Source of the DNA: Elephas maximus indicus
Lineage: Eukaryota; Chordata; Mammalia; Proboscidea; Elephantidae
NCBI RefSeq assembly: GCF_024166365.1
Contig: NC_064834.1
Span: forward strand, 52,370,001-52,434,000
Direction of reading: 5' to 3'
Length of the DNA stretch: 64,000 nt
Part shown: piece by piece, positions 1-17,149 of the stretch
How the letters are laid out: every line of letters starts with the position of its first letter
Numbering within the stretch: the stretch's first letter is position 1
Made by a program: the position numbers and the translations under genes
The notes under the pieces: model-generated
The model's database searches: none
Told to the model about the DNA's origin: nothing
What the model saw: the letters and a program-made list of their open reading frames with translations, nothing else

Positions 1-1839
1 CCTGTGTTTCAGGTAAGTGACCAGCTGGCTCAGATGCATGCAGGGAACACTAAGCCCAGTGTGTTCACCCCCAGTTCAAAACACCTGGTTCCCTAGTGAG
101 TGGCTCTCTACGTGTGTGTCTGTTGTGTCTCAGTTTGTGTCTCTGATAATACAGAAGCAAGAGCAACTAAGGTGTGTGTTGTTGCACTTTGCACTTCATA
201 AATCACTTCCATGCACATTATTTCCTGACCAGAAACCTGTGAGAAGGGCAAGGGTTGTTATTACTGCTATAGAGAAGAGGAAACAAAGGCACGAGAGCTG
301 TGCAATGAATGTGTGACTCAGCAGGTGACAGTCCCAGTGTGTGACAGGGTGGCTGTGGTTCTGAGGATGGCAGTAAGAGGCTAACTGTGTGTGTGAACGT
401 CACACCTGTGTGTAATGGAGTGACCACATGATAGTGTGTGCTCTTTGTGGGTGTGACTAGGGTTTTATTTATGCATAATGCTCTCCTGTCTTGATCCTTG
501 GGAATGTTGCCCTGTGTAAAACAAAAAGCTTTTTTTTTTTTTTTTTTGCTTTTAAGCTATTGTGCTCTTGGATTGGAAAATTCCCATTTGATTGGGGGGG
601 GTGGAGAAGAAGAAAAGAAAACTAGTGAAGTCTGATGTTCTACAAAGCAAATGTTGGCAATATGAGAATTTGGCCATGATTTGCCTGAAAGGGTAGAAAT
701 TCATATTTTTGTAGGAAGATTTTAAAAATTTAAGTTGGAACCATGATATAGATTTTCTCTCTAGGCTCCTGGGCCCTCCAACTTCCTGTCCCTGGTTCAA
801 CAGTCCTTCTAAAGGAAGCTCAGCTTAAGTGGATGGGAATCCTAGAGGACAACTTTCAGTTCCTGACCAAAGTGGGCCTGGAGCTGGGGCTTGACTCCTT
901 GCCTTGGTGCCTTTGGGGCTTCAGGGTGTGTGTTTGAGTAGGGGCCAGCCACAGCCCTTATTGAGGGCATTACTTGATGGCCCTTTAGTGTGATTCAGGG
1001 CATGTGAGCAAGGCTGTCTTCCAGAGTAGGAGGCCCAGGGTAAGTGGGTGGGGGTAGAAAGCGGGGCCAATAAGAAGGGCATATATGGTTAGGAGCAGTA
1101 GTGCTCATGAGATGTGAGAGTGTGTGAGAAGGAAGAGTATAAAAGGGTGTATATGAGAAAAGTGGGGTGTGAGAGATTTGAGGGAGAATGTTAGAAAGGT
1201 GTGAGGGGTGTAAACTCCAGAATGGAAGGGCAAGATGTGGGCCAAAGCAAAGTGGGGCTTGGATCAGGGGATGTGAGTGAATGTATGGGTGTGAGTCTGA
1301 GCATCCAAGAAACTTGGGGTAAAGGGACCAGGATGTGGTGGGACAGTGTGGCTCATGTGGGTGTGGCAGGAGCTTGAGAGGCCTTTCCTGGTTCACTCTC
1401 AAATGCCCTCACCATTTTAGGGACAAGGAAGCCAGGGCCTTTTCCTTTTATTTTAAGTTTTTGTTTCTTTTTAAGAAAAGGAAGAACCTGGAGTCCTTGG
1501 AACAGGAGAGCTTGTGAGGGCTTTAGCACACAGCTCCACGATGTATTGATGACAGAGACCTCCAGAGAACTGAGGCCGAGACCATGGAGTGTGTGGCTGG
1601 CTGTGGAACCTGATAGTCCATAAAGTGGGATGGGACCAGTGCTGAGAGTCTGAGGAAAGAGAACTGCACAAAGTTGGGGACTGCCTGAGCGAGAGGACGC
1701 CCCTGAGTGCGAAGCTGGATCACTGCCTGGGAGCATGTGACAGTGAAGAAGAGGGGGTGGGGTGGGAAGGGTGTGCCGTCTTCTAGGCTGGGGATTCCGT
1801 CTTTGGGTGCCTCTGGCAGCGAGGTTGTCGGGCTTGCTT

Positions 1840-2150
1840 GCGGCTGGCTCAGGGCCTTCGTGCGTGTGCGCGCGTGTGCGCGAGGCGGAGAGCCCCGCGT
1901 CGCTGCTCCGCGTGTGGCTGTGCCTTGGTGTGGCTGGGTATGTGAGCGCGGCCGGGAGTGCAGCTCCCAGCCGACGCGGCGGGCAGCCTGGGTTATCTGA
2001 GCCGCTCGGTCTTGGGTGGCTGCGCCCAGATCTCCGGGCGGCGGCGGCGAAGGCGAGAAGCGCTGTCGAGCCGCAGAGGAGCCGGGAAGCCAGACCCAGG
2101 CCCAGGCGGTGGCAGGGAGCAGAGCATGGAACCACGCGGGGGCCGGGCAG
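1840..2150 (+). other. PAX2: Candidate alternative upstream first exon of PAX2
   Basis: The block is CpG-rich and ends in CAG|GTAAGAGTGG, a near-perfect 5' splice site with GT at 2151. Apart from an ATG followed at once by TGA at 1940, its only ATG is at 2126, with A at -3 and G at +4 (strong Kozak context). The frame from there, MEPRGGRA plus one base, stops at the donor in phase 1, the phase of the canonical exon 1. Joining it to exon 2 would keep the paired-domain frame. As I recall, some human PAX2 models begin about 10 kb upstream of the main start, which matches the spacing; this is not verified. The start coordinate is approximate. It could instead be the first exon of a non-coding transcript. 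Confidence 0.45.
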
Positions 2151-3224
2151 GTAAGAGTGGGGAGCGACTGGTAAGGGACACGCAGGCAAGGGGGTATCTG
2201 AGAGGGAGGGGGGCAGGCAGGCCCGGGGCGGGCTCACCCCACTCCTCTTGTTTTCCTGTGCTTGGGACCCAGCGGAACCACTGTAAAGCTGGAGGGTGGG
2301 CCTCTTGTGCCTTCCCTCCCCATGTCCTCTAAATCTTCCAGTAAAAACTTTCCACACAGAAAATGTGAGTTTTACAACTTCTTTTTGCAGAACCTGGCTT
2401 TTCCTTTCTGTTGAGAGTTTAAGACTTTATCCCTCCGCTTTCTCTAGGCGTATAAATATTTTTCGCAACTTCCTCCAACTTGGGAAGTGGGGAGGCTGTC
2501 TAGTGGGAAGGGAGTATGGGCGTGTGTATGTGTGCCAGTGGGTGGGGAAACAGAGTGAACACACCGGTGTATACAAGTGTGTGAGTATCTTGTGCATTTG
2601 AATATGAACCTAAGTGTGAGCACTGGTGTAGAAGTGCCTAAGGCATAGCCGGGTGATGGCTCTGCCAGGGAAAACCCAACAGCTTCAGAGAGGCCTGGGG
2701 GGAGGGGGCAGGCCCCAGGGGAGTGCGGTGGGGGAGGGGAATCTGAAGCTGCCTACCCAAAGGGCTAAGTGAGTGAAGGGCTGCTCTACTATTTCCGTAT
2801 TTCCTCTTCCTCTTCCCCAGGCCTGCCAGATTTGCACTGACTGTCCACCTGGTGCCTTGGTGTGGTGCAGGGGTGGGAAGCCAGGTGCCCAAGCAGTTTT
2901 GGATCGACGGGAGGGAGAATGTTAAATCAGTTCTCCAAATAATTCCACAGAGGTCAAGGCCTAACTCTAGACCTTTTCTTTTTTTTTTTTTTTCTTTGCT
3001 TCCTAATTCTCAGTCCTTCCCTCTCCCACTCCCTCACTAGCTCAGGTTCCAGTTCTTTCAGCTGATAACCCAGGTTCCACCTCTGGCACTGTTCCTTGGC
3101 CCAATCCTTGGACTGTCCCCACCCCATTCCTATGGCCTTGTCCACACTGAGGAACCTGGACCCCCCAGGAGTGTCAGCTGTGGCCTTCCGGGCTTTTAGG
3201 GCTCAGGGCCACCCCTCCGCACCA

Positions 3225-3385
3225 GAGGTTTAAGTAGGGAGATCAATAGCAAACAGTTGTAATGATCTAATTAATTATGGCAAAATTAAAAGCGAGTACA
3301 AAATCAATCTCTGATGGTGTTGAAGATGGAATTCAATTGAGAGCCCATCTGTGCACCCCCTCGACCGTATAAATATGCAGCCCAA
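3225..3385. promoter_or_regulatory. Candidate conserved non-coding element upstream of PAX2
   Basis: This is an A/T-rich island within GC-rich flank. It contains several TAAT/ATTA homeodomain cores (for example TCTAATTAATTATGG near 3266) and a TATAAATA near 3368. It has no repeat signature and no low-complexity bias. Regulatory function is inferred from composition and location only. Confidence 0.3.
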
Positions 3386-3989
3386 GGACAGACCTAATAG
3401 CTGGGCTTTCCTGGGAGCCTCTCTTCCCCTTTCTTCCTCTCCTGCACAGGGCTTCTGGCTCACTCACTCTCTCTAAATCTAGTTTGCCTCCTGAGGCCTC
3501 CTGACCCCACCCCTCCCTCTTTCCTGGTCCTGTTTGCTCAGGCTTCTCTATTCTCTCACTTTTCCATTTTCCCTCCAGGCAGGCAGCTCCCTCTGCCTTG
3601 TAGGCCCGAGGTGTGTGGATCTTGCTCCCAGCCCGGGCAAGTCTCCCAGCAGATGCACCTAGGCCAGCGCCTCGGGAAGGAGAAGGCAGAGCGGTGAGGG
3701 GCATCCTTGAGCGCCTTTCAGGGTCCTCACCCCAAGCTTTCTGCGCTTCGGCTCCTCCAGAAGCTAGACCGGACCGCGGCGCATCCCACGTCCCCAGGGG
3801 CGCCTGCGCCTACCTGCCGGGTCGGGTAGGGGCCGGGACGCCGGGTTGCCCGCCGCGCTCCCTTTCGGTTCCTTCTTTTTCCCGCCTTTGCCGGCGCGGG
3901 GCTCGCACTCCCGGCGGCCGCGGCTCGCAGAAGGGTGGGGAGGAGCTGTGGCCCTGGGCAGGAGGCCGAGCGGGGTCTTAGAAAAGGAA

Positions 3990-4043
3990 ATCACAGTTCC
4001 CTTCGAGGCTGCCTGGCTGAGCAGCCTCGAAGGGAACTGTGAT
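3990..4043 (+). ncRNA. Perfect hairpin, candidate microRNA precursor
   Basis: The 22-base arm at 3991-4012 is an exact reverse complement of 4021-4042. A further A-T pair at 3990/4043 gives 23 uninterrupted pairs around the 8-base loop CTGGCTGA. After a 2x2 mismatch the stem resumes for four pairs (3984-3987 with 4046-4049, one of them G-T). Arm length, loop size and a lower stem beyond a small bulge fit an animal microRNA precursor. I do not recognise the mature sequence. Because the arms are perfectly complementary, either strand could give the same hairpin. It could instead be a young inverted duplication or an assembly fold-back. Confidence 0.4.
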
Positions 4044-5396
4044 GGTCTTCTGCCCTCCCCGCCGCCTTCTGTCTTTCTTTCTCTCTCCACTACTCCCCTC
4101 CTGTTCTTCTGAACCCATCTCCTCCATAGCCCTGTGGCTTCCCGAGGGTCCGCACCCCCCAGACAGCCCCTACGTCCGGTCCCTTTTGGCCCCATCCGGC
4201 TACTTTAATGGGACAATGATAAACGCGCTCGAGCGAGCGTGCCTGGAGGACGCCCGCGCGCAACCGCTGCAGACGGGTTTGCGAAGGATACGGGTTTTAT
4301 TCTCGCTGCGCCTGTTCCGTAAGAAAAGAGAGAGGAAAGGGGAAGGGGGAGAGAAGCGGCAGCTGGGTCAGTTGTATCTTCAGCCATCGCCGCGTTTTCC
4401 TCCCAAAACCATAAAACAAGATGTTTATTTGTCGTCCTCCCTTTTTCTCCCCTTTTCAGCCGCTGGCCTTCTCCAGTCGGCTCTCCAGCTCTCTGTCGTT
4501 GGTCCCCTGCCTCTCCCTCCTAGGGTCCTAGGTCCATCCTTGGCCCATACTGAGCTCCCTGCCCTCGGAGACCCCTGCCTCTCCTTGATCCACAGCCCGG
4601 CCCTCAGTGCCTGGGGGAGACACAGCCTAACGCCTCCCCACCCTCTTTTGCCAGACCTCCTCTCCCCGTTATTAATTGCTGTGTTGACCTGCAGGATTGA
4701 TTGGATGCCCCTCTGCAAGAGGCTGCAGAGGCCTTGGCCTCGGAGCAGCCTCGCTGAGGGCAAAGGGAGGAGGGAAGGCACAGGATCTAGGTTCTGAGCT
4801 CCCAACTCAGCCCGTCTGGAATACAGCTGTTTGCCTAGACACCCTTTGCCACACTCCCCCCACACAAACACCTTTACGCACCCTCACAACTCAAACACAC
4901 ACTCACAGACCCCTTCACCAAGAGTTGCTCAGTCCCCAAGAAGACACACCAGAAATTCTCCTTAATCGGTTTAGAATTGAAAGAAACTTCTCTTCCGATT
5001 ATTCAGTTTCTTCAGTGTATTTGTTATAGCTCCGGGTCTAGACCTCACTGTCGGCCTAGACAGGGCCAACGAACTCCTGGCACCCAGGCCTTTTACTGTC
5101 CGACTGATTTTGCGCCTTCTGTTTTCTAGGAACAGTTGCAGAAAGTTAAATAATCCTGAATGCGGCTGACCCTTAAAGCCTCAAACCAAAGCACTTTCGC
5201 CAGAAAGAGACCTTGCCTTTGCTTCTCTGTGATTAGTTTCAGCCCTTTTGTTTCAAATTCGGGGAATGGACGGCCTTGGACAGTGGAGGGTGGAGGCTTG
5301 CAACCCCCCTGGGGGCAGGGGTCGAACTTACGCTTACAGCGAGGGCCCTTCCCTCCTACCCCTACCCCTCGCCTGCCTAAACCGCTGGGCGTGCGA

Positions 5397-5432
5397 GCGC
5401 GCGCGCGCACACACACACACACATGCACACAC
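5397..5432. repeat. (GC)n(AC)n alternating purine-pyrimidine tract
   Basis: An uninterrupted 36-base alternation of purine and pyrimidine: about 12 bases of GC repeat run into AC repeat, with one TG step near the end. It is a simple repeat in CpG-rich upstream DNA. Confidence 0.9.
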
Positions 5433-7039
5433 TTACGGGACCCCAACAGCCACAAGCAACTTCCAGCAACACGCCCCTGCCCCGACCCGAGGCCACGGGA
5501 CAGCTGGCCAGGAACCCAAGAGGGAGTGAGCCCTGGGATATCCCGACTCCAAGGTGGGAGCTGGGGCGGGAGCGGGGAGGCCGGAGTACACAAACCTTGG
5601 CTGTCACCCGAAAGAACCCCTTTCTTGGGGCCTCTCCCTATCTCTGCCAGCCCTTCTCGCCCGTTTTTCCCTCTTCCTCCACTCCAATCCTTTGTCTCCA
5701 GCCACTTTGCGCGCCGGGAGCCTGTCCCCCGCCTTCGCACCCCTTCCTGTTGTCTTCCCAGTCTGGCTAGCAGGTCGCCCCTCCTTACCCGTTCCCGGCT
5801 CTGGCGCATTCTCCGCCTGCTCCTGGCATCCATACAGCTGCTGGGAGAGGAGGAAAGGAGGGCGGGCACACCGCGGATGGATCCAAGACAGTAGATTTAG
5901 GGTCTGCTCCCAACTCCGAGAAAACTAGGCACGGTCCTCCCGCCCCTCTCTAACTCTGCCAGGCCCCGTGCCCTCGCCAGCGTGGAGCCCCTGCTCCACA
6001 GCCGTGGCTCGCTGGCTTCCGGGGTCCGCCCTGTGTCTAGAGTTGCACTCCCCTACCTTGCTCTCCGTTCCCTCTCGGCTACCCCTTGCTGCCGCCTGCC
6101 CCCTCCCTCCGCAGCCCCCTTCGTCTCGGGGGCCATGGCAGGTGGCGCCGGGGACATCGCGGGCCTGCCTGCACTGTGTCCCCCAACCACAGTCGGGTCA
6201 GGCCGCGGGCTCAGGGCCCGGCTGAGAGGGGGGTTAATCATTACTTCGCCACCGGCACCCAGCCTCCCTCGGACTATCTTACCGTGGCTTGTGGGGGGGA
6301 GAAGGGAAGGGGACAGCAGGCCCGGTGGGGACCTTGGCTTCGCCCAAACCAGCCTCTTCGGGCCTCCAGGCACAGGTGCCTTCTCCATCCCCTCAGCACC
6401 CCTTTCACGTCCCTTCTTTCCCTCCTTGCCTCTCCCCCTTTCCATGCCTCCTTCAGTCAGGCCTCGCTCCGCCGCCTCATCCGGGCTCTGGCTGTGGCAG
6501 GTTGGCTGCAGGTCTTCGGAGGACCAACTTTCTTTGTTTGGAAGCGGACCGGACGGGATTTCCCTCCCCTTGTCTCCGCTGGGGGCCAGCTCCCCCCGAT
6601 GGTTTTGGCGGACTGGCCCGAAGGGAACGGCGCCTGAGGCCACTATTAACCCAGCTGGGGGCTGGGGGCTTAACTGATCCTCTAGCAGCTGCGCTGGTGC
6701 CTTGGGGAAGGGGTGCAGGAAGAAGTGGAAAAGGAGGAGTGGCAGGAGGGATGGAGACAGAACAGAGGGTTAAACTTGGCCTGGGTGGGGTATGATCAAT
6801 GGAAAGAAGAACCCTAAAAGGGAGGAACACAGGAAGGGGGGCAGTGAGGGATCCCCTAGGCACCTTTAAAGGATAGAAGTTGAATGGAAAACACCACCTC
6901 TGCCTGGGCTAAGTGCTCAGATTCCTCCCTTCCCTCTGTATAGATGGACTGGACATTTATTCCTTAGTCTACTGCAGAAATGTTTGGTTTACGAAATGCT
7001 CTCCCATTGGTTAGCTCCATGGAGTAGGCAAGACAGTTG

Positions 7040-7092
7040 TGGTCAGTCCCATCTTACAGGTGAGGAAACTGAGGCTCAAAGAGGCAAAGGGA
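7040..7092 (-). repeat. MIR fragment
   Basis: It contains the MIR core read on the minus strand (ACAGGTGAGGAAACTGAGGC followed by an AGAGG motif). This is an old tRNA-derived SINE remnant shared by mammals. Confidence 0.6.
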
Positions 7093-7793
7093 CTATGCAT
7101 GTGGTAACTGCCGGTCCTCCCCCTGGGCTGTGGGGCATGGGCCCCTTTCCTGCTGTGCAGAGGTCCATGCATGTCTGGGGGATGGAGGAACGGGTTGTCC
7201 AGGTCTGAGCCTGAGTACAGTTCTGGGTCTCTTCTTATCCCCCAACTCCCCCTGTGAAGAGCTTGTCCTCGCTTGGGCCTCCACTCCAACCCTGTTGTTA
7301 CTGTAGACCGCTGGCCCAGTTCCTCCTGGCTTGACTCTTTTTCGCACCCCCCAGTCAGGTGGCCCGCGGGTCGCAGCCACCTGGCAGGCCCGTGCCGCTA
7401 AGAGGCCGCTTTGGTGGCCAAGTGGCTCTCATTGTCGTCACCCCTTAAAGAGGCTGCGAAGGGCCGGGGCAGGTCGCAGGGACCTCTAGCGAGAGAAGCC
7501 GGGTTAAAGGGGGAGGGGCGGAAGGATAAAGGCCCAGCACGTGCGCTCAGCCTCCACAGGACCAACAGACCGAGCGGGCGGGGCGGCCGCCAGTCAGGCC
7601 CCCGGGACTTCACACAAGGAGCCCAAATATTGGGAACAAAAGCGGGAAAAGAAGAATAAGAGCAGGAGGGAGGGAGTGAGGAGGCAGAAATTAGGGGGTC
7701 TTAGATGAAAAAAAAAAGTAGCTTTAGGGGGAATGTGCTGTGGAGTGTGAAATTGCAGCCCATGGTGCTCCATATTGTACCAGAAGCTCTTCC

Positions 7794-7817
7794 AAAAAAA
7801 AAAAAAAAAAAAAAAAA
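7794..7817. repeat. Poly(A) tract
   Basis: A homopolymer run of about 24 A after CTTCC. There is no recognisable retroposed gene body on its 5' side. Confidence 0.85.
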
Positions 7818-10634
7818 CCCATCCTCCAACGTGACCAGAGGGCTAGGAAGGGGGAGGGGCGGAGAAAACCGGAGGGGGAGGGGAAGGGCCAGGCGCGAAC
7901 TGGTCAGACCAAGCCGGAGAGGGGGCCCGGGTGTGCTTGCCAGCCTGGCTGATGAGATCTGACCGCCGATGGTGTGCGCCGGGCAGCGCCGCTGTCCGGA
8001 AGGCGATTGGGCCAAGGCGTCCACCCCAGAGCTTGATCGTCAGACGAACTTTTTTTTTTTTTTTAGTAGTGGCGTTGGTAACTTCCAGAACTGGGAACAA
8101 CCTAGAAAAGGAGCTCGGCTGCGGAGCGGCTCCTCTGCTCTCCCCTTCTCTCCTCCTTCCTCCGCTTCTGCTCCTCTTCCCTTCGGACTAGTTTTCCTCC
8201 CTTGGTTCTAAACAGCTTCCCCTCGCCACCCCCCCCCCAACTTTAATGCGTTTAATTTGGTCTGCTCTGTGGGGAGCATTTCCTGGGGAGATACATTTAA
8301 TTTCGGAATTTCTAATCCCCTCCCTCAGAGCCCGGGCCCTGACGCCCCTTACCGCTCGCCGGGAGGTGGCAGGAGGAAGGCAGGCCCGGGCCACCGGGGA
8401 GGGACAGGGCTGGAGTCCCCTGCCTTCCCAAATGCTCGGAATCGGGCGACTGGGCCTCAGGTCAGGGCCCTGCCGGAGAAGGGGAGGCAACGACGCCTTT
8501 AGCTTTGCCTAGCACTGTAGAAAGCGCTGGGCCAGAGGGAAACGACTTTCCAAACAAGCAGAAGGGTCGCGAAGGGAGCGGGTGCGAGCGGTGGCAGCAG
8601 ACGAAGGTCTACACTGGCACTGCACTTCCTTCGCAACGTGCCTAGAAATGTTTGGGAGCTCCGGGTGCGAGTCGCACTTGGCTTGGCTTGTTGCGCCTGT
8701 TCCTGTATATACACGCCGGACCGCCGCCTCCCGGACACGTCCCCATGCAGAGCAGGCGCGGCCCGGGCCGAGAGCCAGGAAGGCCGCAGATCGGCCCACC
8801 GCTAGGGAGGAGGCCAGGGCGGGGGCGCCGGGCGCCGGGCGAGCCTGGCAGGGAAGAGCGGGGAGAAAGCGAAGGAGCCGAGATCCACAAGGAAGATTTA
8901 TTGGGCAGATCAGATGCACAGAGGCAGCTAATGAAGCAAATCCCGAGATGGGTATCAGAGCAACTCCCCAAAAGTTTCTTTGCCTTTAAATTTCCGCAGG
9001 GAGGCGGGTGCCTTGTTTGAAGTGTAAATGCCCCTAGGTTGGGGGTGGAATGGCCGCTTTGAAAACACCAGAGAGAAAAGGTTCATTTAGAGGCAGACGG
9101 GAAAAGCAACCAACCCTGACAGGTTGGAGCCCGGGTTGTGTTTGGGGTTGGGTTGTTTTCTTTCGTTCTCGTTGCTTCTTACCTTTTTTTCTTTCTTGCT
9201 TTTTTCCCTCTCTACCATTCTGTAGAGATGAAGAAAGGGAAGGACAGGAAAGAGGCGGTCAGAGGGAGAGGCCAACGGCCGGAGAGAAAGCTATAGGCCA
9301 GCCCTTCATCAGGAGCCCTAGGAGAAGGCAGAGCTGTGGCTAAAAGGGGTACCTAATCGTCAGGGAGGACTCCTCCTTAACTTTCTAGACCTGGGAACAG
9401 GCTGGAGCTAAGGAGGAGACTGCCAGAGGCTGGCCTGGCCAGAAAGAGGGTGAGTGTCCAGCTAGTGCAGTGCTGGGACATCCGGAATAGAGGGGCTGCC
9501 TGCAAGTTAGACTACCAGGGAATGGTCTTCACTCCTCAGGGGATGCCTGTGAATGGTAGGGGCGTGAGCACAACCTCCAAAACAATTTGTGCCTTAAGTC
9601 CCCATCTGCAAAACGTCAAAATTCCTCTCGTCCAGTATGTGCAGATGCATATCATCTGAGCTCACACCCACAGCGTGTGTAACACAGGGCTATGTCTAGC
9701 TGGTTCTAGAAAAATCTGTATCTAAGGTGGAAGGGAGTTCTGCCCACAGTCTTGTTCCTCCGATAGTTCAGACCCCTCCTCCCAATCATAGGGAAATCTT
9801 GGGGCAAAGGGCTCTTTTAGCTCTGAACTGGTCTCGGTGAGGACACTTCCTCAATGACCCCTCTCACCCCAATTCTGAGTTAACTACCTCCCAAGGGAAG
9901 CCCGAGGCTGTATCAGCTAATATCACCTGAAAGCCCCTTGATCCCAGGCCTGGCAGCGGTGCCTTTAGGCACCTGGCACTGTTTTCCTTTTTTTCTCCCC
10001 ACTCGAAGTTAGTGCGTGTTCGTGGGGTTGAATGGCCAAAGCAAACCCAGGAGCGCCATCTACAGGCCTCCAGAAGAAGCGACTGACCTTCAGGCCGGAC
10101 CCTGTGCTTCCAACCTCCGGCCCAAGGGAGCTGGCTCCACCGCCCAAGGGAGGTGGGGGCAGAGGCTGGGATGGAGGGGGCAAGTAAGGGAGGGTTTTTT
10201 TTTTTTCTCCCAGAAGTTACCCCAAGGAGGAAATGGGCTCAGGAAGATACAGGACGGAGGGCAAATGCCGGGATCCCAGCGAACCCGGCCCTCTAGTAGT
10301 GAGAGGCTCCAAAACCTTGTCTGGCTGAGCTTGGCCGGAGCCGTGCCTGAGGAGCAAGGGGGTCCCCCAAACCCAGTTCCGGGAAGCCTGATGGGAGTCC
10401 TGGCTGAGTCTGGCTGGTGAGGCCCCCGATCCTAGTTGCTGCCCAAGCCCCGGCCAAAGAACCGCAGCGCGTGTCCCCAGCGCTTCCCCGTGTGCCGGAG
10501 ACTGCAGGCAGAGCTGGAGTAGCTTTAGGTCTTGGTGGCTAGCGCGCAGCGCAGGGCAGCGCAGACTTCGCCGAGCAGCCGTTTTCGCAGACCCAGGAAA
10601 GCGGGGGGAGGGAGAGAAGGAGGGAGAGTTAAAA

Positions 10635-10735
10635 CATCAGCTGAAGTGCCAAGATGATTTATGAGACGAGGGAAAATATTTCATAAAGATCTCCCGGATA
10701 TTCTGTACTTAACCAGTTGAGAGACAAAGGGCCTC
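10635..10735. promoter_or_regulatory. Candidate distal promoter element
   Basis: An A/T-rich, complex stretch just upstream of the GC-rich promoter. It carries GATGATTTATGAG (a HOX/CDX-like TTTATG core) and an AAATATTTCATAAAG segment. It stands out from both GC-rich flanks. Function is inferred only. Confidence 0.3.
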
Positions 10736-10739
10736 CTTC

Positions 10740-11865
10740 CTGGTGTGTGCGAACGGACCCGAGCTAGCGAGAGAGCGAGGGAGCTAGTGCTGGCAAGGGC
10801 TGTGGAGGCTGGGGCCTCAGCTCCGGCGGGAGCGGGGCTGGGCCCAGCGCGCGGCGCCTCCTGCGCTGGCTTGGGATCGCCGAGCTGGCAGCGGGCGGCG
10901 CTCCGCCGCGTTCACAGCCTCCTCTTCTCCCCAGCCGGGGAGAGAGAGTCTTGGTCTCCTGCGTTCTCTGCCGTCCGCGACCGGCCGCTCCACACTGTCT
11001 CCCTCCCCAAGCCCCCTCCTCGGCCATCCGAGGGCCCAGGAGCCAAGTCCCCGGGTTCTGCTGCCGTCAGTTGGGTCCCACCGGAAAGGTGGGTCCTCGC
11101 TGGAGCTTTCCAGTCCGATTCCAAATCGAGTGCTCTGGGTTGCCCAGACCCCTGTGGCCAGGGGACGAGTGAGGCTCTGGACGCAGCGGCTGAACGTGGG
11201 ACGGGAGAGGACAAACTGCCCGCACTTTGCCTCGGAATGAGAATGGGGGGGGTGCGTGGGCGGGGAGGTACCTCAGGAGGCAAATGCGAAAGGAAGGAAC
11301 AGAGAGGGAGGAAGGAAGAGCCAGGAAGGAACGGAAAGGAACTCGGGGCTGGGGGTAGGGGAGTTAGGACTAGGGATGAGACTGGCCGGGCTGCGCGGCC
11401 CATGCGGGCACTGGCCGGTGGATGGCAGGTCTGGGAGAGTTGGGACTGCGAGCCGCCTTCGGAGAGCGGTGCGCGGCGCGGCCCTCTGTCGGTGCCTGAA
11501 TATTCATTAGACCGGTCGCTCTTTATCCTTATCTAACGTTTATCTTATCGGCGAGTTTCGTTTCTCAGTGTAGTTTTAATCCCGGGCTCCCCCTTCCCCC
11601 TCCCCGGCCCGCTTCCCTCCCTCCCTCTTCCTTCGCCCGCTGCTCCCTCCCTCCCGCTCGCTTCCCCCTCCCCTGCCCTCCCCACGCCGGCACAGGAGTG
11701 ACAGGCGCGGGGCCCTCCTCGCCGAAGCTCGGGGCTCCGGCGCTGGCGAATCACAGAGTGGTGGAATCTATTGCCTTTGTCTGACAAGTCATCCATCTCC
11801 CGGCGAGGGGAGGAGGAGGGGGTCTGGAGGGGGCTTTGCAGCTTTTAGAGAGACACACACCGGGA
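10740..11865 (+). promoter_or_regulatory. PAX2: PAX2 proximal promoter region, CpG island
   Basis: GC- and CpG-rich DNA immediately upstream of the presumed PAX2 start. No TATA box was seen at a suitable distance, as expected for a CpG-island developmental promoter. Within it, 11495-11553 is an A/T-rich window with an ATATTCAT motif and four TATC cores. Further down, 11749-11800 has a SOX-like CTTTGTC next to TGACAAGTCATCC. The 263-codon open frame across this region is compositional and is not called as a gene. Confidence 0.65.
11523..11550 (-). promoter_or_regulatory. Cluster of GATA-type motifs
   Basis: Four TATC cores (GATA on the minus strand) lie within 28 bases, at 11524, 11530, 11541 and 11546. 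Two (TTATCT at 11529 and 11540) fit the WGATAR consensus exactly; the other two are near matches. They sit about 320-340 bases upstream of the presumed transcription start. Binding is inferred. Confidence 0.45.
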
Positions 11866-12169
11866 GCCGCCGCTCCAGTCTCCGGCCGAGCCTCCTCGCA
11901 GCCGCGATCCACCTGGGGCCAGCCCCGCTCTGCCGGCGCCGCTCGGCTCCCTCCTCCCTCCGGCCTCCGGCCGCGGCGGCGTGCCCGGGCCTGTTCCGGG
12001 GGCAGGGGCGGCCCGCGCGCTCCCTCCCGCCGGCGCCCGCTCGGACGGCCCGGGGATTGCTACTTCTCTACCAACTTCGCCAACTCGCCGGCACTTGGAG
12101 AGACCCCGCTCCCGTCCGGCGCCCTCGGGCCGCCCCCGCCCCGCGCCTTCCGCGACCGCCGCCTCGCGG

Positions 12170-12193
12170 ATGACCGGCTTCCTGGGGCGCTGA
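12170..12193 (+). CDS. Upstream ORF 1 in the PAX2 leader (7 codons)
   Basis: ATG at 12170 followed by six codons and TGA at 12191. It has A at +4, and the TGA is in the same frame as the PAX2 start codon 118 codons later. It probably matters, if at all, as a translational control element and not as a peptide. Its translation is not shown by the sequence. Confidence 0.3.
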   Translation: MTGFLGR

Positions 12194-12246
12194 GTGTGCT
12201 GCCGCCCTCGTCCAGCCTCAAACCGGCCGCAGCTGCAGCGCGCACC

Positions 12247-12300
12247 ATGCGTCCCCAGTGCCCCCCAGCCCGGCCTGCCGTCCCGGGGCCGCTCTGCTGA
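12247..12300 (+). CDS. Upstream ORF 2 in the PAX2 leader (17 codons)
   Basis: ATG at 12247 in the context GCACCATGC, with A at -3, encodes 17 residues beginning MRPQC and ends at TGA 12298-12300, 244 bases before the PAX2 ATG. My recollection of the human leader has an ORF of the same length at the same place, which would suggest constraint; this needs an alignment. The likely role is to limit or tune PAX2 translation. Confidence 0.4.
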   Translation: MRPQCPPARPAVPGPLC

Positions 12301-12544
12301 TCGCCCAGCCCGCGCGCCCCGACGGCGGGAACTTGCGGCCCCAGTGGCTGCCAGCCCGGGCAGCCCGGAGGAGTCCCCGCGGGGAGCTCAGCGCGGCCTC
12401 CCTCGCCCCCGTGCGCCTCGCTGCAGCCGGGCGCCTGCTCACCTCCCCCCCACCGTCCCTCCCTTTTCTCCTCAAGTCCTGAAGTTGAGTTTTCGAGGCG
12501 ACACGGCGGCGGCGGCCGCGCTGCTCCCGCTCCTCTGTCTCCCC

Positions 12545-12587
12545 ATGGATATGCACTGCAAAGCAGACCCCTTCTCCGCGATGCACC
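12545..12587 (+). CDS. PAX2: PAX2 coding exon 1
   Basis: This exon encodes MDMHCKADPFSAMH plus the first base of codon 15. This N-terminus is characteristic of PAX2 and separates it from PAX8 and from the main PAX5 form. The ATG context is CCCCATGG, with G at +4. The exon ends at C|GTGAGT (donor 12588), phase 1. A second ATG two codons later (Met3) lies in the same frame. PAX2 is a nuclear DNA-binding regulator of kidney, urogenital tract, optic stalk, inner ear and midbrain-hindbrain development. In people, loss of one copy causes papillorenal syndrome. Confidence 0.97.
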
Positions 12588-13535
12588 GTGAGTACCCGCG
12601 CCCGGCTCCTGTCCGGCTCGGGCTCTTCGTCCCAACCTAGTCCTGTCCCAAGGCGGCCCCGGCTCCCTGCGCTCAGGCCCCATCTCGGAGGCCACGCTGG
12701 CTCCTCTCGGCCCCTCATTTCGTTCCTCCCCTTTCCCTTGGCGCGGTGTTTCTCAAGCCTCCAGCTTCCTTTCCCTCCGCCTGTCACCCAGGCTTATCCT
12801 CTGCCTGCTTTCCCACCTTCCCCGGTGCCCGGCACCTGCCTTTCCTCCTTCCACCTGATCCTTCTCAGGTCTCCGGGTCTTCTGCAGTCCCAGGTCCTGA
12901 CTCCTGCGAAACCCCACTCCCTGGTGGCCCTCTTGCCCTGGGTGGGGCACTAATGGGCAGGTAGTTTCCAGGATTGTGTTTTGTGTTGTGTTTTCTCTAT
13001 CTGTTCTCTATCTCTTTCACTCTTTCTGTCTACCTCCTCCTTCTCCCTTGCCTCTTCTGTACCTTTCTCAAACTAAGAGTTGTGGGTGTTTAGGAGGAGA
13101 CTCCCAGCGTGGGTAGCCTCAGTGTAGGACAAACTGGCCGCAGAGTGTGGGGGTGGGGTGCCCCCTTCTGACCCTCAGCTCCCAGCAGCTCCCGGGCCTC
13201 CTAGCCAAGCTAATGCCGAGCTCCTTGCCGGCTGGCTTGAAATGCTCCTTTCCTCTCCCTTTATTTCTCACCACTCTCCTCTCTCCTTTTCTTGAGTTGG
13301 GAGTCCAGGTTGGCACGACATCCTTGTGGTGGTCGTCTTCCCCCACATCTTTCTTGGAGATGCTCCAAAAACAAAGGGGGCTTCTGAGGAGAAATCTAAG
13401 TCAATGCCAGGGCAAGGAGAGCAGTTTCCTGGGCCACCCTCGAAGAGCGCAGCTCTGCCCCCAGTTTTGGAGGCACCTGGCTGGGCTTCCACTCCCTGGC
13501 AAGGCTGATGCAGCCAGCAACCTGGTCAGGGGGTT

Positions 13536-13700
13536 GCAGAGAGGGAGAAAATGAGGGGGAAGAACAAAAGGAAGGCAAATGCCAAAGCTGGGGAGAAAGG
13601 AGAGAGAAATCAAAAGAAGGGGAAGGAAATTGAAGGAAGAAAATTGAAAGGATTTTGCAGAAAGGAGAAAGGGAGAAAAGTAATAGGAAAATGAGGGAAT
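13536..13700 (+). repeat. Purine-rich low-complexity tract
   Basis: A run of about 165 bases is almost all A and G on the + strand (GAGAGGGAGAAAATGAGGGG and similar blocks). It is imperfect, with no fixed repeat unit. Confidence 0.7.
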
Positions 13701-13949
13701 TATTTTAATAAAATTTGAATTTATCTGATTCATTTCATTCATCTTAGCTTGGAAAACAATTCCAAGATTTTTTTTGCAGTTTTTTTTAAGACAAATAAGA
13801 TTCTAAATAGAAAGCTCCTCCCCATCAGTAGATTAATAATAAAGGATAATTTGTAACTTTTCACAGGGAAACTTTTAGACCTGATTTGGGTCTGTGCTTT
13901 GGAAAACAGAGGAGGAGGGAGAGCTGTGTTTTTTTTTTTCCCCCTTAAG

Positions 13950-14050
13950 CATATATTTAGCGTTACAAGGGGAGCTTTACAAAATACTCCTGGGATAAAA
14001 TTGATTTCCCCAAATAATCTCCAAGCGCTGGGGGCCAGCGCCAAGGCCTC
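13950..14050. promoter_or_regulatory. Candidate intron 1 regulatory element
   Basis: A complex A/T-rich segment between GC-rich blocks, containing GCATATATTTAGCG and GGATAAAATTGATTTCC. It shows no repeat signature. Called only on composition and position in intron 1. Confidence 0.3.
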
Positions 14051-14479
14051 CGACGCTGCGGGCCCCTGTTAGCCGGGCTGGAAAGCCTCCCTCCTTTCCG
14101 GAGGGAGTGGACCCGGGTCCGCAGCCGTCTTCGCCCTGCCTGCCTGCCTGCCTCCCGGCCTGGTCTCCCCTGCTCGCGCTCTCCTCTCTTGACGATTCTG
14201 CGGACATTCTGCCGAGCCGTAGCCGCCCACTGGGTGCCACTTGGAAACCCAAAGTGAAGCAAGGCAAGCAGAAGCGGGTAGGAGAAGGGAGAGAGCTTTG
14301 CGCCGGCCGGCCGGCTGGCGGGCTGGCAAGCGAGAGCTGCAGCCGGAGTCGCCGCCCGGGGCATTCCAGGCCCGACTCTGCGCCAGCTTCGGGAGCCCAC
14401 CCTGGACCCCCGCCGTGCCTCCTTCCCATCCCCACCCTTAGACTGGGGCCGAAGGGCCGGGCCCGGAGCCCGGCGAGGC

Positions 14480-14580
14480 TGAATTATTCATCTTTAATCT
14501 GCCGGCAGCTGCCGCCTTTTCATACCGGTAACGCGAGTTCTCCCGGGGCCTAAATTATTGATGATCCGGGTTTGGAGGGA
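14480..14580. promoter_or_regulatory. Candidate intron 1 regulatory element with ATTA cores
   Basis: Contains GAATTATTCATCTTTAATC and CCTAAATTATTGATGATCC, two homeodomain-like A/T clusters about 60 bases apart, separated by GC-rich sequence. No transposon signature. Function is inferred. Confidence 0.3.
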
Positions 14581-16016
14581 GGGGAAGGTGAGGAGTGGGG
14601 CTAGAAATAGGTGGGGAGACAAGAGAACGTAAAAGGAGAGGTTCATTTTTCCCCCAGCTTCCCCATCAGATGCTAACTCCCCAGAGGATTCGCCCACCCT
14701 TGCCCTTGGTCCCCAGAAGGGGACGGGAGGGAGATGAGGGGAGCGCATGGGTACCCGCTTTCTCCGAAAGTGGCCTGAGGCTAGCGGGGCAGAGGCTGCA
14801 GGTTGCCGGCCGGCTCCAGGCCCGCTTGGCAGCTACAAGTCTGCGCTCAGATTGCTCAATAACTGTGGCTGCCGGTTGATGGCTCTAGGTGCCGGGTTTC
14901 TAAACTGCTGCAGGCGAAGGAGGAAGGGGCGCGCGGCAGCGACCTCAGTCCTGGCACCCGGTGTCCGCCTGGCTCCGAGGTGGGGAGCTCGCGCTGCAGC
15001 AGGGTTGGAAACCCAGAGCCTTACTCTTGCCTTGGCTAGAGGAGCAAACGCCTTTGGTGCTCGGTTGCCTGCGCGGAAACCGCAGCTAAGGGGTCAGAGG
15101 GATGCGAGCTAGCTTGGATTGGCTGCACAGAGTGCCCCTGAGCCACCAACCCGCCGGGCGGCCTGGACCAGGCGACCTGAGCAAGGTGGTAGGCTGCATA
15201 TCTGGAGCAGCGCGGCAGCAGGCGAGCGGGAGCAGCCTGCGCTCTCGGCTGTTGCCGGCGCCGCTCGGCGCTCCGCCGCCTCCCGGTCTCTGAGGGCTGC
15301 AGACCGAGGTCCCTGCCTCCTCCACCTTCCTGCCTCCACATGGTTTTCTTTGAACTTTAGACATTTTAGAGGCAAGAGGAAAATATGGTCCCCAAATATC
15401 TAGAGGCAAAAAAAGAAAGAAAAACGCACGATTAAATAAAAAGAGAAAGAAGTAGGAAAGCTCCGATTAAAAATAAATACAAAGAAACAGGTAGGGAGCA
15501 AAACAGCCCCTAAGAACCGAGTCAACCAGATCCCGATTCCCCAGAATCGCCATCCGCCAAGACCTAGCGCGCAAGGACAACACCCCCTTCCTGCGGCGCA
15601 GGCGGGGATCCCTCTCAGCCGCCTGGTCTACAGTCTGCCCGGCCCTTCCCCTCCTAAAAAAACTAGCTTTCCTGAATTCTTCCCCGCTGGCATGAACTCC
15701 CCCTTTCTGTTTTCCCCTACCCACCCTTCCCCTTTTTCTTTTCTTCTGCCGGGCTTCTCCACTCCCTCCCGCACTTTCTACCATGCGTCTTCGTGGTCTA
15801 AGAACCGCGTTCTTTCGCATCCCTGGGCTCTGCGTCTGCGCTTCCGCGTCTCCAGGGCTTCGCGGTTCCAATCCCCAATCCTCGGCCTTGTGGTCCGCGG
15901 GCCACCCCTCTCCGCGAGTCCGGGAACATGCCCCTCCGCCCTGGCCGCGGACCCTGACTAATGGCCGGTCCCTGCTGTGTGTGGGGTGTTGTGTTTTTTT
16001 TCTTGTCTCTCCCCAG

Positions 16017-16185
16017 CAGGGCACGGGGGTGTGAACCAGCTCGGGGGGGTGTTTGTGAACGGCCGGCCCCTGCCCGACGTGGTGAGGCAGCGCATCGTGG
16101 AGCTCGCCCACCAGGGTGTGCGGCCCTGCGACATCTCCCGGCAGTTGCGGGTCAGCCACGGCTGTGTCAGCAAAATCCTGGGCAG
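16017..16185 (+). CDS. PAX2: PAX2 coding exon 2 (paired domain, PAI part)
   Basis: Completes Pro15 and encodes residues 16-70 plus two bases of codon 71, starting [20 protein letters not shown]. This is the beta hairpin and first helix-turn-helix (PAI) of the paired domain, including the [18 protein letters not shown] recognition helix region that contacts DNA. The acceptor is CCCCAG|CAG|GG, so splicing can occur at 16017 or at 16020; the first gives the usual Pro-Gly. The donor is GGCAG|GTGAGG at 16186. It holds a run of seven G at 16043-16049 (codons 24-26), the known human frameshift hotspot. The reading frame is intact. Confidence 0.97.

Positions 16186-17149
<964 letters not shown>

Follow-up and report, generated by a model that had tools for sequence, protein, structure and literature searches.

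A candidate upstream promoter and in-phase first exon of PAX2 in Elephas maximus indicus, compared with the two-promoter arrangement of PAX5

The window analyzed here, a 64,000-nt stretch of the Elephas maximus indicus genome, holds the 5' part of PAX2, a gene of the mammalian kidney and eye: exon 1, exon 2 and a further paired-box match at about 16946-17149. In the coding part of canonical exon 1 (12545..12587, + strand), 43 nucleotides run from the ATG at 12545, specify MDMHCKADPFSAMH plus one base and end in phase 1, with the first intron base at 12588. Exon 2 (16017..16185, + strand) opens the paired domain and matches positions 1-58 of Pfam PF00292. It can be entered at either acceptor of a NAGNAG pair, at 16017 (score 9.76) or 16020 (score 6.62), since the exon is preceded by CAGCAG (16014-16019), which sets the two acceptors three bases apart. 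With canonical exon 1, use of the second acceptor converts MH-P-GHGG into MH-R-HGG, and with the upstream exon described below the choice would come down to one alanine gained or lost.

About 10.4 kb 5' of the canonical ATG at 12545 lies a CpG-rich block, which we propose as a distal PAX2 promoter with its exon. Using thresholds of GC >= 0.55 and observed/expected CpG >= 0.65, the island extends over 560 bases (1681..2240, + strand). The sequence-only reading had drawn this block at 1840-2155; its CpG richness stands (GC 0.73, CpG observed/expected 0.94), but the true extent is larger. The flanks are CpG-poor, with an observed/expected ratio of 0.35 in bin 1601-1800 and 0.20 in bin 2201-2400, and the next block reaching the thresholds begins at 3621. 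In all, 15 CpG-rich blocks are found in the window, every one of them inside its first 17.2 kb. Retention of CpG at a ratio of 0.94 beside such flanks suggests a lasting absence of germline methylation at the island. Neither TATA nor CCAAT has a match in the island, and GGGCGG occurs there at 2036 and 2226. GC skew is positive inside the block and also before it and is therefore uninformative. No second copy, duplicate or retrocopy of the exon was found in the genome, where a search with 501 bases taken around the block returned nothing but that stretch itself (very common words were skipped), and an Rfam scan gave 0 matches at the gathering threshold.

The proposed upstream first exon occupies 1946..2150 on the + strand. 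Its 3' end is set by the donor, and its 5' end was chosen only as the position just past the last short ATG-TGA. The splice donor GTAAGA (2151..2156, + strand) reads CAG/GTAAGAGT with the intron starting at base 2151, and it scores 7.01 on approximate weights, where the donor of canonical exon 1 reaches 1.80 and that of exon 2 reaches 7.31. A second, weaker donor (score 5.22) lies 20 bases further 3', at 2171. Four ATGs are present in 1600-2160 (at 1630, 1735, 1940 and 2126). A TGA comes directly after the ATGs at 1735 and 1940, and the one at 1630 has a different phase and lies 5' of the CpG block. The remaining ATG (2126-2128) is in strong context, position -3 being A (2123) and position +4 being G (2129), and its frame has an in-frame stop upstream at 1943. 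From it, the putative alternative coding start (2126..2150, + strand) spans 25 nt and would specify MEPRGGRA plus one base, ending in phase 1, although such a frame arises in 31% of shuffled blocks, and in 7% with strong context. The sequence-only reading had described a CpG-rich block closed by this donor, a sole usable ATG in strong context, and a phase shared with canonical exon 1. Donor coordinates and sequence check out, the other ATGs of the block stop at once or fall outside it, the start context is borne out, and the 25-nt and 43-nt coding stretches do share phase 1. As a candidate first exon of PAX2, the upstream exon thus combines a donor phase that matches exon 2, an open frame and a high donor score. 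Pattern scans for it in collections of genome and viral contigs with no other vertebrate among them gave 0 matches, a result that carries no information on mammals.

The frame stays open when the upstream exon is joined in silico to either acceptor of exon 2, as had been claimed for the join at 16017; with the second acceptor the product reads MEPRGGRAGHGG... In the predicted product, MDMHCKADPFSAMH-P would be replaced by MEPRGGRA-A and the paired domain would be whole. A rough score ranks acceptor 16017 sixth among the 1038 AG sites scored in 2170-16200. The five acceptor-like sites that outscore it, all ahead of exon 2, are at 10214, 2821, 3450, 3579 and 8070, so that other joins, including a cassette or early-ending exon, are possible.

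Several surveys indicate how far this arrangement departs from chance. Donors were scored with the same approximate weights, and on the + strand only 9 of 3239 GT sites, the donor at 2151 among them, score at or above 7.01. A survey of both strands, which excluded the first 600 bases of each and judged CpG richness in the 300 bases upstream, returned 13 donors at or above 7.0 (8 on the + strand, 5 on the - strand). CpG-rich sequence lies upstream of 4 of the 13, and the one at 2151 is the only one of these four with an open phase-1 ATG. Lowering the cutoff to 5.0 gave 47 donors, with an open phase-1 ATG within 300 bases in 13 and CpG-rich sequence upstream in 7; two donors, 2151 (+) and 12442 (-), have both CpG richness and a strong-context phase-1 ATG. 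When the block was dinucleotide-shuffled 5000 times and the donor kept in place, an open phase-1 ATG appeared in 30.6% of the shuffles and a strong-context one in 7.2%. Because shuffles yield such a frame this often, it is the combination of island and donor that is notable and not the frame by itself: the ATG and phase on their own are weak evidence for coding.

Two other features of the window deserve mention. Inside the proposed first intron, a perfect inverted repeat (3990-4043) has 23-base arms with 8 bases between them, and the 86-base stretch around it folds at -50.5 kcal/mol (z -8.05). No other copy of the repeat was found in the genome and it matched no Rfam family; it is either a microRNA-like hairpin or an inverted duplication produced by template switching. 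At the window edge (10-20) there is a strong donor, CAG/GTAAGTGA, with its first intron base at 13 and a score of 8.63. This donor may belong to an exon even further upstream that is cut by the window edge; no CpG richness was detected near it, in 1-200.

Published mouse data bear on the same part of the gene. RNA-seq of the developing mouse kidney detected Pax2 signal ahead of the RefSeq start, at a distance of 10-12 kb, which the authors called an alternative promoter (PMC3180702). That paper enters it as an uncharacterized "Alt. 5'/Promoter" assigned by signal and gives the distance as about 12 kb in one place and 10 kb in another; its Table 2 gives no junction for this upstream 5' end, and antisense transcripts at mouse Pax2 are likewise described. 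The comparison concerns the same gene, and it is one of RNA-seq signal, with no exon borders, to the elephant block, matched by distance and not by alignment. In the literature we searched, an upstream Pax2 promoter is described only in PMC3180702, as far as the available texts go. A PAX2 protein with an MEPRGGRA N-terminus was not found in the accessible literature searched by accession, coordinates and wording, and the available text of a survey of Pax2/5/8 splicing mentions no such PAX2 exon (PMC4488758). PMC4365716 was rejected as a coincidence of numbers.

In human, a short CpG island of 498 bases (chr10:102495116-102495613), compared with 560 here, is listed under PAX2 (PMC5478622). As reported there, its methylation is 5% in normal bronchial cells and on average 94% in three lung cancer lines, in which it is among the top 20 hypermethylated islands. 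That paper describes methylation and not transcripts, and the island, which would precede the canonical promoter by about 10 kb, was again matched to the elephant block by distance and not by alignment. The canonical human promoter is overlapped by a 1,598-base element at hg19 chr10:102504680-102506278 (PMC12352900). According to the same report, in endometrial cancer lines the open, H3K27ac/H3K4me3-marked promoter accompanying PAX2 expression is, by its coordinates, the canonical region, and Methyl-seq in 8 lines, over a region of 230 kb surrounding the gene, is described as showing no feature that tracks PAX2 expression. These lines may simply leave a distal promoter unused.

The position of the human island depends on the genome build, which PMC5478622 does not state. 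That paper places the RASSF1A island at 50377803-50378540, the same coordinates that are given as hg19 in PMC9404304. With the RASSF1A coordinates given as hg19 and the canonical promoter element at hg19 102504680-102506278, the PAX2 island should lie upstream of the canonical promoter; on the build so deduced, some 9.1 to 11.2 kb would separate it from that element, a spacing like that in the window. Older PAX2 start coordinates are nearly identical to those of the island, namely chr10:102495457 (PMC2687719) and 102495458 (PMC3262754), and, if all were in one build, would put the island on the canonical start itself. We rejected that placement since these coordinates probably belong to another build; PMC3262754 reports alignment to build 36.3 and variants in hg18, with one table header reading hg19.

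Our best explanation, which we hold to be rather likely, is that the block is a distal PAX2 promoter with a first exon joined in phase to exon 2. Transcription would begin in the island and head towards PAX2, and the donor at 2151 would be spliced to exon 2 at 16017/16020. RNA from the upstream island would skip canonical exon 1 because the latter, being a first exon, lacks an acceptor of similar strength: within 11400-12546 no AG scores above 4.45, compared to 9.76 at 16017. In the resulting protein the paired domain would be intact and the residues ahead of it exchanged. The upstream promoter and first exon are probably real; we infer the join to exon 2 from phase, frame and splice-site scores, and translation from the ATG at 2126 is plausible on the same grounds. 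Human Ensembl PAX2 models, we presume, start near hg19 chr10:102495360, within the island at 102495116-102495613, and human gene models presumably already contain an upstream coding exon. The reading as promoter and first exon is partly supported by its agreement with independent mouse and human data at about the matching position; that the elephant element, the mouse signal and the human island are one and the same element is inferred, as is the exact start site. An upstream promoter at about this distance is in print for mouse, and an island there for human; the consequence at the protein level is putative.

A real distal promoter need not produce the MEPRGGRA protein. Its exon could be a 5' untranslated one that reaches the gene via another exon, or it could belong to a separate non-coding or early-ended RNA. 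This is a possibility we regard as doubtful but worth keeping in mind, given that the mouse signal comes with no junctions in Table 2 of PMC3180702, that five intronic acceptor-like sites outscore the acceptor of exon 2, and that an open in-phase frame turns up in 31% of shuffles. Yet phase, start context and donor strength are mutually consistent, and 16017 still ranks 6th of the 1038 AG sites in 2170-16200 on the rough score.

Productive splicing itself would be given up if the CpG island acted in the PAX2 locus as an enhancer or as a site bound by Polycomb, with donor and ATG present by chance. The donor, which is among the strongest of the window and lies near the downstream edge of the island, argues against this, as does the mouse kidney RNA signal extending to 10-12 kb upstream (PMC3180702). 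On the other hand, 15 CpG-rich blocks occupy the first 17.2 kb, and a 4.1 kb minimal promoter in upstream Pax2 DNA is cited in PMC3180702. Homeobox genes and Polycomb targets are also reported as enriched among hypermethylated genes, with tumor hypermethylation chiefly at islands distant from start sites (PMC5478622). The latter means that the hypermethylation of the human island does not favor the promoter reading. Overall, we consider a Polycomb or enhancer element without productive splicing to be improbable.

If the distal promoter and its coding first exon are used as we propose, PAX2 dosage and isoform choice would depend on two promoters, as for PAX5, and gene panels that cover only the canonical exons would overlook changes in the distal promoter, its donor or the start codon. 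Since the human island at about this distance is strongly methylated in three lung cancer lines (PMC5478622), results reported as "PAX2 promoter methylation" may refer to the distal island rather than the main promoter. A broader and quite speculative idea, which we think unlikely in its full form, is that placental mammals possess a PAX5-like two-promoter PAX2 system, gained independently, whose distal promoter is active in the developing kidney and makes a distinct N-terminus. If true, variants of the exon could be relevant to families with renal coloboma in whom the usual exons carry no mutation.

The precedent invoked in the sequence-only reading, that PAX5 joins two alternative first exons to a shared exon 2, is real as regards layout. 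PAX5 has a distal exon 1A, coding for 15 residues, and a proximal exon 1B (+7 kb), coding for 14, and both are followed by the common exons 2 to 10; 1B resembles the canonical first exon of PAX2, and 1A appears with mammals according to the authors (PMC9456430 and PMC6132355). The two systems differ in that 1A has documented transcripts, whereas the PAX2 upstream exon is a candidate recognized in genomic sequence. They also differ in their peptides, the only part compared: by eye, MEPRGGRA shows no likeness to the 1A peptide MDLEKNYPTPRTSRT, and this comparison gave no sign of homology to exon 1A. Common descent of the upstream exons is not supported. Paired-box searches of the elephant's own genome gave at least 10 and at least 6 matches, none recognizable as PAX5 (the matched genes were not individually identified), and PAX5 exon 2 is absent from the 6 matches listed; as these counts are lower bounds, they are no evidence of PAX5 loss. 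By analogy, the PAX2 upstream exon would nevertheless work like the PAX5 pair. Both layouts, that of PAX2 as proposed here, have two promoters kilobases apart (+7 kb in PAX5, about 10.4 kb in PAX2), short coding first exons and a shared exon 2, and only the 14-15 residues ahead of the paired domain are altered. RNA from PAX5 promoter 1A skips exon 1B, just as we propose for canonical exon 1 of PAX2.
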